Shown here: piece by piece, positions 2,728-14,403 of the stretch | Numbering within the stretch: position 1 is the first letter of the stretch | Layout: every line of letters begins with the position of its first letter | DNA from: Chloroflexota bacterium | GTDB taxonomy: Bacteria > Chloroflexota > Anaerolineae > UBA1429 | Direction: 5' to 3' | Length of the DNA stretch: 14,403 bases | Assembly (NCBI GenBank): GCA_012513595.1 | Contig: JAAZBY010000223.1 | Span: 1-14,403 of the forward strand | Program-made: the position numbers and the translations under genes | The notes under the pieces: model-generated | Seen by the model: only the letters and a program-made list of their open reading frames with translations | Told to the model about the DNA's origin: nothing | The model's database searches: none

Positions 2728-5661
<2,934 letters not shown>

Positions 5662-10324: not shown

Positions 10325-10354
10325 AGCCGTACTTGACCCAGAGGAAAGGTGACC

Positions 10355-11269
10355 ATGCTCTATACCGACTCTAGCCGTGGGCGCTCCTTTGCCAAAGACC
10401 CCGCCGTCGTGTGGTACGCGGGGCGTTACCTCATGTACTACAGCATCCCTGCCTACGGTGATGGGCGGCCCGGGGACGGCTTGGCCATCGGCATCGCCGA
10501 GAGCCAGGACCTGGAGGCGTGGCGGCGCATAGGGGAGATCGCGCCACAGGCCGACTATGAGAAGAACGGGCTATGCGCCCCCGGGGCGCTGGTGCACGAT
10601 GGCCGCCTGCACCTCTTTTACCAGATGTACGGCAACGGCCCGCGCGACGCGATCTGCCACGCCGTGTCGGACGATGGCCTCCACTTTGAGCGGAACGCCA
10701 CCAACCCGATCATCCGCCCCAGCGGGGCGTGGAACTGCGGCCGGGCCATCGACGCGGATGTCGTCGTCGACGGCGAGCGGCTGCTCCTCTACTGGGCGAC
10801 GCGGGACCCCGCCATGCGCGTGCAGATGCTGGGCGTCTCCGGCGCGCCGCTGGCCTCGGCATTTGGCAGGGAGGACTGGGTCCAGCTATGCGAGGGCCCG
10901 ATCCTGGCCCCCGAGCTGGCCTGGGAGCAGGAGTGCATTGAGGCGCCGGCCGTGTGCCGGCACGAGGGCCGGTTCTACATGTTCTACGGAGGAGCGTACA
11001 ACTGCATGCCGCAGCAGATCGGCTGCGCCGTGAGCGACGATGGCGTGCTGTGGAAGCGCCTGTCCGCAGAACCCTTCCTGCCCAACGGGCCGGCGGGGGC
11101 CTGGAATGCCTGCGAGTCGGGCCATCCCTACGTCTTTGAGGACCGCGACGGGCGCACCCACCTCTTCTACCAGGGCTCGGCAGACAAGGGGCAGACCTGG
11201 TACCTGTCGCGCGTCGAGCTGGCCTGGGGGCCGGCCGGCCCGCGGATCATGGCCGGCTCGGTGCGTTAG
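10355..11269 (+). CDS. GH43-like five-bladed beta-propeller glycosidase
   Basis: A 304-residue protein made of repeated propeller blades (GRYLMYYS, GRLHLFYQ, ERLLLYWA, GRFYMFYGG, GRTHLFYQ, each preceded by a short polar strand). The three carboxylates of the GH43/GH32 clan fall where expected: Asp15 in FAKDPAVVWY, Asp134 in AIDADVVVDG and Glu196 in ECIEAPAVCR. It probably acts on or binds a plant-type or other oligosaccharide; linkage and sugar cannot be read from sequence. There is no signal peptide, so it would be cytosolic. The ATG at 10355 has GAGGAAAGG about 5 nt upstream and is preferred to a GTG at 10349. It is followed by a strong hairpin terminator. The TIM-barrel and oxidoreductase genes beyond the gap support a sugar-metabolism role. 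Confidence 0.82.
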   Translation: MLYTDSSRGRSFAKDPAVVWYAGRYLMYYSIPAYGDGRPGDGLAIGIAESQDLEAWRRIGEIAPQADYEKNGLCAPGALVHDGRLHLFYQMYGNGPRDAICHAVSDDGLHFERNATNPIIRPSGAWNCGRAIDADVVVDGERLLLYWATRDPAMRVQMLGVSGAPLASAFGREDWVQLCEGPILAPELAWEQECIEAPAVCRHEGRFYMFYGGAYNCMPQQIGCAVSDDGVLWKRLSAEPFLPNGPAGAWNACESGHPYVFEDRDGRTHLFYQGSADKGQTWYLSRVELAWGPAGPRIMAGSVR

Positions 11270-11291
11270 GGCCCGGCGCTGAGCAAGCAGC

Positions 11292-11324
11292 ACGCCCCCT
11301 GGATGGCATCCATCCAGGGGGCGT
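11292..11324 (+). terminator. strong hairpin terminator of the beta-propeller gene
   Basis: A perfect 15-bp stem: ACGCCCCCTGGATGG (11292-11306), loop CAT, then its exact complement (11310-11324). A short T-run (11330-11333, GTTTTCC) follows on the plus strand. It lies 22 nt after the stop codon. Read on the minus strand the same hairpin would close the RNA element described at 11342-11575, but without a T-tract there. Confidence 0.75.
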
Positions 11325-11349
11325 TCGCGTTTTCCACCTGCCAGACGGG

Positions 11350-11382
11350 CTAGGGGCCCGTCTGACCGCCTAGGGCAATCAT
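11350..11382 (-). other. mini-ORF of repeat unit 3 (10 codons plus stop)
   Basis: ATG at 11382 encodes MIALGGQTGP and ends at TAG (11350-11352). GGGAG ends 8 nt upstream. Here the frame passes through the conserved CTAGGC out of phase and stops later, inside the 9-bp hairpin. That argues the stem, not the reading frame, is the conserved object. Confidence 0.28.
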
Positions 11383-11430
11383 AGGCCTTACTCCCTTGCT
11401 CGGCCACGCCGAGCGTGCGAGGTTTCTTGC

Positions 11431-11451
11431 CTAGCTCGTGCATCCATCCAT
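11431..11451 (-). other. mini-ORF of repeat unit 2 (6 codons plus stop)
   Basis: ATG at 11451 encodes MDGCTS and ends at TAG (11431-11433). GGGAG again ends exactly 8 nt upstream. The stop overlaps the conserved TAGGC strand, as in unit 1. Confidence 0.3.
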
Positions 11452-11499
11452 AGGCTCATCTCCCTGCGCCGGCGATAGCCGGCTGTCGTGGTGACTTGC

Positions 11500-11520
11500 C
11501 TAGGCGGCGTCTGCAACCAT
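11500..11520 (-). other. mini-ORF of repeat unit 1 (6 codons plus stop)
   Basis: ATG at 11520 opens a frame encoding MVADAA and stops at TAG (11500-11502). A GGGGAG Shine-Dalgarno ends 8 nt before the ATG, which is optimal spacing. The TAG is part of the conserved TAGGC stem strand. Translation is possible but unproven. Confidence 0.3.
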
Positions 11521-11571
11521 AGGCACAACTCCCCGGCTGGGGTACTAGGTCCCGTGGTTGAACCAGCCCTT

Positions 11572-11589
11572 CTGACTGTCAGTATAGCA
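11572..11589 (-). promoter_or_regulatory. extended -10 promoter with small palindrome at the start site
   Basis: On the minus strand TGC-TATACT (11581-11589) is an extended -10 element, five of six bases matching the -10 consensus; no clear -35 is seen, which extended -10 promoters tolerate. The predicted start near 11575 coincides with the beginning of the repeat array. CTGAC-T-GTCAG (11572-11582) is a perfect 5-bp palindrome that overlaps the end of the -10 and the start, so it could be a repressor site. Confidence 0.45.
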
Positions 11590-11673
11590 GATCACCGCGC
11601 GTTGGTGCGTAAAGACTGAGTTACAGATTTGGCGACCATTCCTGCGCGGGAGCGGCGCGGGACGGCCCAGGTC

Positions 11674-11702
11674 TTGCACCGCGAAGGGAGAGATCGTACA
11701 CT
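11674..11702 (+). promoter_or_regulatory. weak promoter candidate for the TIM-barrel gene
   Basis: TTGCAC (11674-11679) and TACACT (11697-11702) have 17-bp spacing. The -35 is poor (three of six) and the -10 matches four of six, the same TACACT as the MFS promoter. It predicts a start near 11709 and a leader of only about 14 nt, which still contains AAGGAGG (11712-11718). The rest of the 11590-11673 stretch shows nothing recognisable. Confidence 0.3.
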
Positions 11703-11722
11703 GGACAGCGCAAGGAGGCACG

Positions 11723-12490
11723 ATGCGGATCGCCTATTCGCGCGGTACCGGCAGCCCGAGCGAGCTGACCTTGCTGCTGCGTACGTGCGCCAGGGTGGGC
11801 TATGACGGTCTATGCTTGCGCCCGAGCCAGTACGAGCCGTGGCTTGCGGACCCGGGCGCCTTTGTGCACACCTACGGGAGCCTGGGCTGCGCCGTGGCCG
11901 GCGTGCACGTCGGAGGGGGGCTCGACGGCGCGGGTGTGGCGCGCCTGCGTGCCGCGCTGCGGTTCGTGCGCGCCCTGGGGGGCGAGCGGGTCGTCCTGGC
12001 ACACCGGGTGGACCGCCGTGACCTGTCGGCCATCGACCTGCGCGCCGCGGCCAGGCAGCTTTGTGACCTCGGCCACGAGGCCGCTGACCAGGGGGTGGCT
12101 CTGTCTCTGCAGAACCATCTGGGCGGCCCGGCCATGTACCGCAAGGACCTCGAGGTGCTCTTTGACGCGATTGACGACGAAACCGTCTGGTGGACGGCCG
12201 ACGTCAGCCAGCTGTACCTGGCCGGCGAGTTCGACATCGCCGGCCTGCTCCGCGAGTTCCGCTTCGCGCTCGACAACGTGCACCTGAACGACTGCGCCGG
12301 CGGAACCTGCCGTGCCCTCGGGCAGGGCGAAGTGCCGCTGGCGCCGGTGTTCGCGGCCCTGCAGGAGATCGGCTTTGGCGGCTGGCTCACGGTGCACGAC
12401 GACAGCGGCCTGCCCCTCGAAACGGCGGCGGCTGCCGGGTACGAGTACGTGTTGGGCGCCCTGGGCAGGCGGGAGGCGACCGCCGCCTAG
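11723..12490 (+). CDS. xylose isomerase-like TIM-barrel protein
   Basis: A 255-residue cytosolic protein of the AP-endonuclease-2 / sugar-isomerase TIM-barrel superfamily, which includes inosose dehydratase, hydroxypyruvate isomerase and sugar epimerases. The strand motifs follow in order: YDGLCLRPSQY, CAVAGVHVGG, GERVVLAHRV, GVALSLQNHLGG, VWWTADVSQLYLAG, NVHLNDC, GFGGWLTVHDD. The family's metal site is Glu-Asp-His-Glu; here Asp160 and His187 are kept but the first Glu is Gln130 and the last is His225. It may therefore bind metal differently, or be inactive or specialised. AAGGAGG lies 4 nt before the ATG. The Gfo/Idh oxidoreductase follows after 62 nt; such pairs commonly act together in inositol or keto-sugar metabolism. 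Confidence 0.85.
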   Translation: MRIAYSRGTGSPSELTLLLRTCARVGYDGLCLRPSQYEPWLADPGAFVHTYGSLGCAVAGVHVGGGLDGAGVARLRAALRFVRALGGERVVLAHRVDRRDLSAIDLRAAARQLCDLGHEAADQGVALSLQNHLGGPAMYRKDLEVLFDAIDDETVWWTADVSQLYLAGEFDIAGLLREFRFALDNVHLNDCAGGTCRALGQGEVPLAPVFAALQEIGFGGWLTVHDDSGLPLETAAAAGYEYVLGALGRREATAA

Positions 12491-13650: not shown

Positions 13651-14403
13651 GTGAGCGAAGAGATCTACCGTCAACTGGCACGGCGGCTGGACATGATCCC
13701 GAACGGCTTCCCCGCCACCCGCAGCGGGGTGGAGCTGCGCATTCTGGCCAGGCTGTTCACCGCCGAGCAGGCTCGCCTGGCGGCGGTGATGCGCCTGACG
13801 CCGGAACCCTCGTCCGACATCGCTGCACGAGCGGGCCTGGAGGAGCGTGCTGCGCACGCCGCCCTGAAGGATATGGCTCGCCTGGGGCTGATCCGCGCGG
13901 AGGTGAGCGGCCGCCGGATGCGGTTTGGCCTCCTGCAGTTCATCGTGGGGTTCTATGAGGCGCAGCGCCCCCGCCTGGACGCCGAGCTAGCCGCCCTGAT
14001 GGAGCAGTACTTTGCGGAGACGCGCGGCATCGTGGCCTTTGAGGCTCCCTCGGTGCACCGCGTCATCCCCGTCAGCCAGGCGATCGACGTCGGCGTGGAG
14101 GTGTTCCCCTACGAGCACGCCGAGCGCATCGTGAGTGAGGCCAAGTCGTGGGCCGTGGGCACCTGTATCTGCCGGCTGCAGCGGAGCCTGGTGGGGCAGG
14201 CCTGTGGGGCGCCCCTCGAGGCGTGCCTCTGGTTCGCCCCGGTGGAGAACGCCTTCCGGGGGATTACCGATGGCCGGGCTCTCAGCAAGGAAGAGGCCCT
14301 GGACGTCCTGCATGCCTGCGCGGAGGCCGGCCTGGTGCACACGGTACGCAACCAGCGGGACGGTATCTACTACATCTGCAACTGCTGCACCTGTTGCTGC
14401 GGC
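13651..14403 (+). CDS. wHTH plus cysteine-cluster (ferredoxin-like) protein, 3'-truncated
   Basis: The frame starts at GTG 13651 (GGGAGG 4 nt upstream) and is still open at the window edge, giving 251 residues. The N-terminal half (about 20-100) is a winged-helix-like segment: IPNGFPATRSGVELRIL, FTAEQARLAAVM, then DIAARAGLEERAAHAALKDM and a wing. From about 172 there is a CIC...C...C pattern (Cys172, 174, 185, 192), and after a helical stretch the sequence ends in ICNCCTCCCG (Cys243, 245, 246, 248-250). I recognise the general type as 4Fe-4S-binding proteins widespread in anaerobes and Chloroflexota, typically with further ferredoxin clusters beyond this point. The clusters are likely redox or regulatory; no partner is known. 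It follows the oxidoreductase by 75 nt. Confidence 0.82.
   Translation, partial: MSEEIYRQLARRLDMIPNGFPATRSGVELRILARLFTAEQARLAAVMRLTPEPSSDIAARAGLEERAAHAALKDMARLGLIRAEVSGRRMRFGLLQFIVGFYEAQRPRLDAELAALMEQYFAETRGIVAFEAPSVHRVIPVSQAIDVGVEVFPYEHAERIVSEAKSWAVGTCICRLQRSLVGQACGAPLEACLWFAPVENAFRGITDGRALSKEEALDVLHACAEAGLVHTVRNQRDGIYYICNCCTCCCG

Follow-up and report, generated by a model that had tools for sequence, protein, structure and literature searches.

Locus and Neighboring Genes

The window analyzed here is a stretch of 14,403 nt from an Anaerolineae-like Chloroflexota lineage; the best match of its MFS protein is at 73%, and its UvrA reaches 77% to the best near-full-length match (40 genomes). 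A gap without genes lies between a glycosyl hydrolase family 43 (GH43)-like gene and a gene for a xylose isomerase-like TIM barrel protein (XylI), and it was measured at 453 nt, the length reported in the initial annotation (Table 1). The XylI neighbor protein was not matched in any of 48 genomes of the nearest order at E 1e-20 (a search without a positive control), and the closest other protein among 7997 candidates scored was 54% identical, so far as these candidates go a protein that looks rare; its protein cluster represents 3 contigs. It is possible that the GH43-XylI-Gfo stretch represents an acquired cluster of sugar genes. When 80 MFS-gene loci were examined for synteny, none contained a second window gene at E 1e-10, many of these loci being short.

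Elsewhere in the window, two adjacent cysteine-rich ORFs of 112 and 113 aa are found on the minus strand (1039-1377 and 1408-1749). Both start with M-E-x-I-x-A-Y-C-G-L-V-C-S and finish with L-D-G-L-R-A; they look like tandem paralogues and are presumably DUF3795-like. A 251-aa ORF at 13651-14403, open at the window edge, has no Pfam or NCBIfam match and carries a cysteine cluster, CNCCTCCC, at its window-edge end.

Table 1. Features in and around the gap between the GH43-like and XylI-like genes.
Feature	Position	Strand	Remarks
GH43-like gene, convergent neighbor	10349..11269	+	Pfam PF04616
Gap without genes	11270-11722		453 nt
15-bp perfect hairpin	11292..11324		z -7.74 for 11285-11330
Hairpin, 11 pairs, 5-nt loop	11340..11366	-	z -6.90
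Unit 3 putative mini-ORF	11350..11382	-	ATG...TAG, MIALGGQTGP; predicted from sequence; enters next hairpin
Unit 3 core	11368..11395	-	GGGAG 11391-11395; H2 arms GCCTA 11382-11386, TAGGC 11368-11372
Unit 3 H1	11398..11414	-	GCTCGGC/GCCGAGC, 7 bp, 3-nt loop; sequence, folding
Unit 2 core	11429..11464	-	GGGAG 11460-11464; H2 arms GCCTA 11451-11455, TAGGC 11429-11433
Unit 2 putative mini-ORF	11431..11451	-	ATG...TAG, MDGCTS; predicted from sequence
Unit 2 H1	11468..11483	-	GCCGGC/GCCGGC, 6 bp, 4-nt loop; sequence, folding
Unit 1 core	11498..11533	-	GGGAG 11529-11533; H2 arms GCCTA 11520-11524, TAGGC 11498-11502
Unit 1 putative mini-ORF	11500..11520	-	ATG...TAG, MVADAA; predicted from sequence
Unit 1 H1, doubtful	11535..11568	-	GGCTGG/CCAGCC, 22-nt loop; sequence
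Extended -10 promoter-like element	11581..11589	-	TGCTATACT; sole TGNTATAMT of window
XylI-like gene, divergent neighbor	11723..12490	+	Pfam PF01261

Three Tandem Units with a Conserved Core

Within the gap, the initial annotation had described three tandem minus-strand units, each with a first stem (H1), a GGGAG linker and a second stem (H2). The quoted strings were all found in place, and the units follow one another with a period of 69 nt, which is tighter than had been claimed. The window contains exactly three copies of a 16-nt core, GGGAG-N4-GCCTATG, all of them on the minus strand; they begin at 11533, 11464, and 11395 and are hence spaced by exactly 69 nt, and three copies (12 specified bases each) were present in none of 200 shuffles. 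GGGAG lies within 1-3 nt of H1 as described (offsets of 1, 3, and 2 nt). The H2 stem, GCCTA/TAGGC, does not differ between units and encloses loops of 17, 17, and 9 nt. The 14-nt linker starting with AAG that two units were said to share is of equal length in both, and 8 of its 14 bases agree.

Identity at lag 69 over 11360-11575 amounts to 75/147 (51%), a level reached in none of 1000 dinucleotide shuffles by the best lag between 20 and 110. When the window was divided into 263 slices, the highest lag identity came from the array (0.503), but a slice at 3619 inside the uvrA gene reached 0.486; TRF did not detect the array. All 12 core columns are invariant, compared to 11 of 57 elsewhere, and the invariant columns are concentrated in GGGAG and GCCTATG. 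An invariant 12-column core block was given by 0 of 20000 column permutations, for a block picked after being seen, and a run of at least seven invariant columns alone by 220 of 20000. The case for past selection on some feature here depends mainly on this pattern of invariance within the locus.

One alternative, to which we give about a one-in-three chance at best, is a decaying tandem duplication without function, in which a 69-bp triplication has been drifting and the core was left by chance or by conversion between copies. The copies are indeed only distantly alike (40, 36, and 30 of 69 positions in the ungapped unit pairs), as such drift would predict. Against it, identity is distributed unevenly between the core and the remaining columns, with the reservation about post hoc choice of the block given above, and the period between cores has been held while about half of the bases differ.

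A protein-coding tandem repeat was considered (69 = 3 x 23, with a stop-free frame of 67 codons) and rejected, as unit 3 has stops in the 67-codon frame and the substitutions at lag 69 favor no codon position. As a separate observation, CTAG occurs 19 times in the whole window, five of them in the 199 nt of 11350-11548, with at least one in each unit.

Stems, Covariation, and Folding

The initial annotation had taken the differing H1 stems as compensatory changes. The 5' arm of the unit 1 H1 sits off the position homologous to that of units 2 and 3, and loose stems of its kind (loops of 3-23 nt) stand ahead of 140 of 4000 sampled plus-strand positions. Of the 33 GGGAG sites, 5 have such a stem in front of them, and two of these are unrelated to the array. 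Short-loop stems like those of units 2 and 3 (loops of 3-8 nt) stand ahead of 342 of 28686 window positions and of 2 of the 33 GGGAG sites, each of them inside the array. Only the H1 of units 2 and 3 is therefore notable against this background. In the three-unit alignment, which has the H1 of unit 2 one base out of register and is thus biased against H1, two pairs change on both sides, as was matched by 111 of 500 shuffles; H2 gives no evidence of covariation because its sequence never varies.

Folding of single units gave z-scores of -0.24, -0.89, and -1.80 for units 1, 2, and 3, respectively, and the three units together had a z-score of -1.88, with 8 of 200 shuffles equally stable. When unit 3 is folded alone, the minimum-energy fold picks another, overlapping stem instead of H2, and the best global fold pairs units with one another rather than forming three tidy modules. 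Compensatory stems are thus not established, given the loose H1 of unit 1, a covariation that shuffles match, and unit folds that are weak and near the shuffled level. The weak unit folds and the lack of significant covariation also agree with a decaying duplication.

Folding of the whole 291 nt is considerably stronger, with z-scores of -5.10 for the minus and -3.89 for the plus strand, and the minus-strand value comes with two strong downstream hairpins. The upstream one of these had been described with 9 bp; it is present but folds with 11 pairs. The other is a perfect 15-bp hairpin, as had been reported, and is possibly a terminator common to the convergent plus-strand gene and a minus-strand RNA. 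The loop of the unit 2 H2 (a hairpin at 11429-11455) and this 15-bp hairpin have an 11-mer, TGGATGGATGC, in common.

Promoter-Like Signals and GGGAG-ATG Cassettes

An extended -10 box precedes the first H1 arm by 12 nt, and a transcription start would be expected near 11574. The pattern TGNTATAMT has a single copy in the window, counting both strands, and one such copy was present in 4 of 200 shuffles. Hexamers with at most one mismatch from TATAAT (A2 and T6 kept) number four per strand in the window; those on the minus strand include the extended -10 box and one at 11383 inside unit 3, and none on the plus strand falls inside the gap. A two-hexamer promoter scan found nothing in the array region on either strand, and a terminator scan that required a T-run found none on either strand.

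These observations also bear on a control region of the XylI-Gfo sugar genes acting at the DNA level or on the plus strand, in the form of regulator-bound GCCTA...TAGGC dyads upstream of the gene at 11723 or of a leader on the plus strand whose three linkers read CTCCC (anti-SD). The array does lie between two plus-strand sugar-gene neighbors, its conserved parts include the dyad arm and the CTCCC beside it, and the plus strand folds well. We nevertheless regard such a region as unlikely: the spacer of the dyad is variable, the 69-bp period does not correspond to an integral number of helical turns, the array stops about 150 nt short of the XylI start, and the gap offers no TATAAT-like hexamer on the plus strand.

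In all three units, GGGAG stands 8 nt ahead of an ATG, and each ATG is followed by an in-frame stop. This stop is located within the H2 arm in two of the three units and outside it in unit 3. In units 1 and 2, the A of the ATG closes the 5' arm of H2 and the TAG opens its 3' arm, a placement that is partly a given, as CTA is the pairing partner of TAG; that the length of the mini-ORF is in frame is a one-in-three event common to two copies. From its sequence, each unit reads as a ribosome-binding site followed by a putative mini-ORF. Among the gene starts listed, five of nine have GGAG near upstream when judged by eye, two of them as GGGAGG, and GGGAG before ATG is thus an ordinary-looking local start signal.

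Search for Relatives

Relatives of the array were sought with the core pattern, with a covariance model built from the three units (R1), and with blastn. The exact core pattern was found in none of 298 genomes of the class (three matches for a control pattern). In a pattern search of the phylum, five of 400 genomes had one match each, compared to 12 for the reversed control pattern. Core patterns had no match in 80 MFS-gene loci, and the exact pattern had none in plasmids and phages. In viral contigs, the exact pattern was present in seven stretches with one match each, none of which had an R1 tandem in a run that also covered 30 of the 80 MFS loci and the window.

With R1, 25 of the 298 class genomes had one match each at E <=1, one of 41 order genomes had one match at E <=0.2, and, at E <=0.5, one match each was detected in 5 of the 11 genomes from the family of G289 and in 2 of the 15 from that of G268. 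The best E across these genome sets was 0.0098, and certain genomes recur between sets. The runs on 298 and 41 genomes used stricter filters, which weak copies could escape, and the former scored 16 candidates per genome. In addition, R1 was built with the H1 of unit 2 one base out of register and recovers only unit 2 in the window, probably as a result of a one-base overlap between units.

Seventeen of these R1 matches were inspected in context, and every one falls in a frame of 308-941 codons without a stop. This suggests coding sequence but does not prove it where the DNA is GC-rich. The match in L113, one of the 17, appears intergenic when judged by eye but has three broken H2 pairs. Three of the 25 class loci (L109, L127, and L132) have a second weak R1 match approximately 370-400 nt off. 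When 132 loci were scanned for pairs of core-like sites separated by 40-120 nt, eight weak pairs were obtained, none of them close to the core; three of the eight are a single 107-nt-spaced pair that recurs in L109, L117, and L132, which are alike. When the array region was compared by blastn with the 26 genomes behind the MFS loci, 20 were matched at E <=1, and the matches were short and scattered (best E 0.016). Several fell on the H1 of unit 3; five of six such loci checked are a short stretch alone, and in the sixth the search string was not matched.

Overall, neither model nor pattern searches revealed in Chloroflexota genomes an array like the GGGAG-N4-GCCTATG triple, and homologous intergenic copies with compensatory changes, by which the initial annotation had proposed that its claim be judged, were found in none of the Chloroflexota genomes searched. 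This outcome is what a decaying duplication would lead one to expect. The source lineage seems to be hardly sampled, however, and the missing homologues therefore say little; even the XylI gene is unmatched in the 48 order genomes.

Comparison with Known RNAs

No match in the window reached the gathering thresholds of Rfam 15. When the search was relaxed to E 5, six matches were obtained in the gap; the best had an E of 0.2, and each fell well short of its cut-off. No tRNA or tmRNA was found, and searches of open-licence papers turned up no description of such an element.

A tandem aptamer (riboswitch) on the minus strand, one of the roles first proposed, would suit the tandem layout and the invariant core. 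It appears highly improbable, since there is no minus-strand gene downstream and the reading runs into the convergent GH43-like gene; the absence of Rfam matches at threshold and of homologues in the searches above also speaks against it.

Small RNAs sequester CsrA, a protein that binds GGA motifs, and such sponges carry GGA in the apical loops of several hairpins. The array resembles sponges of the CsrB/RsmZ type in having several GGA-containing sites between hairpins, and a CsrA/RsmA-titrating RNA with GGGAG as its GGA sites had accordingly been suggested. CsrA is present in G009, which is among the nearer genomes by UvrA (a partial match, 77%). The suggestion has proved weak and we consider it quite improbable: only 2 of the 48 nearest-order genomes were found to have CsrA (the same search gave 3 of 14 control genomes), the GGGAG motifs lie in linkers 1-3 nt after H1 and not in the apical loops of the named hairpins, and there are three sites only.

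Several described RNAs are partly similar. According to Weinberg et al. (2010, PMC2864571), the STAXI motif consists of repeated modules, usually three in tandem, that are mainly pseudoknots and frequently near genes of DNA-handling proteins. The array shares with it the repetition of modules in threes and differs in having hairpins, sugar-gene neighbors, and no match to Rfam at threshold. Some small RNAs are described as coding for small proteins (PMC5521070); like these, the candidate small RNA contains short ORFs with ribosome-binding signals, but here they are three tandem putative ORFs of 6-10 codons with unlike sequences. Chloroflexi-1 RNA (RF01698), listed for Chloroflexus aggregans, is a candidate RNA from the same phylum, whereas the array has no match at threshold to any Rfam model.

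A Candidate Orphan Small RNA

The reading that we tentatively favor, while holding it level with a decaying duplication, is a stand-alone minus-strand small RNA whose GGGAG-8-AUG cassettes would engage the translation machinery or a C-rich RNA. It is favored on account of the exact spacing, the invariant core, the well-placed -10 box, the local start signal, the strong hairpins, and the lack of codon-position bias at lag 69, which speaks against a protein repeat. The 69-nt period, the conservation focused on the core, the SD-8nt-ATG geometry, and the extended -10 box go beyond the initial annotation and, like the array itself, are plain features of this DNA, from which we infer that the array may be transcribed, that the RNA would have the ends proposed below, and that ribosome contact may be part of its function.

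The locus would then hold a single-locus RNA gene of about 285 nt, composed of three diverged 69-nt modules and closed by the two strong hairpins. Transcription would begin from the extended -10 box and end at the 15-bp hairpin. Each module would offer GGGAG as a purine-rich linker 8 nt ahead of an AUG on the rim of H2, and would thereby mimic, or be, a ribosome-binding site. It is possible that 30S subunits are engaged in this way, with the mini-ORFs being translated or merely initiated and H2 opening and closing as a result; alternatively, GGGAG may pair with a C-rich partner RNA.

Several findings weaken the small RNA reading. Searches yielded only isolated weak matches to model and pattern and no homologue, units 1 and 2 fold barely above shuffles, and unit 3 prefers a stem other than H2. 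The promoter scan gave no two-hexamer promoter and the terminator scan no T-run terminator; moreover, the plus strand folds well too and the global fold runs between units. The uvrA slice nearly equals the array in lag identity, and the stop of unit 3 falls outside the H2 arm. Of the minus-strand RNA originally claimed, a non-random repeat in a gene-free gap that lacks an Rfam match at threshold has stood, to which a plausible promoter element just upstream is added here; a structure demonstrated by compensation is not supported.

A more specific version, which we consider rather improbable, is that of a tandem array of ribosome-engaging cassettes, the RNA being a decoy for ribosomes or for anti-SD sequences, or a sensor of them. 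The start codon and, in two of three units, the stop codon of a six-codon ORF would form the two rims of a hairpin loop, such that initiation would open the hairpin and termination would close it. This mini-ORF reading is the more unusual one, but geometry is its sole argument.

As matters stand, the array is an orphan small-RNA candidate. If it is not transcribed, it offers a caution, as stem changes between tandem copies in a GC-rich locus can mimic compensation by chance. If it is transcribed, it would represent a small RNA not described before, from an Anaerolineae-like lineage that has hardly been sampled. The geometry of its mini-ORFs would then provide a design, open to testing, by which an RNA could sense or titrate initiating ribosomes.
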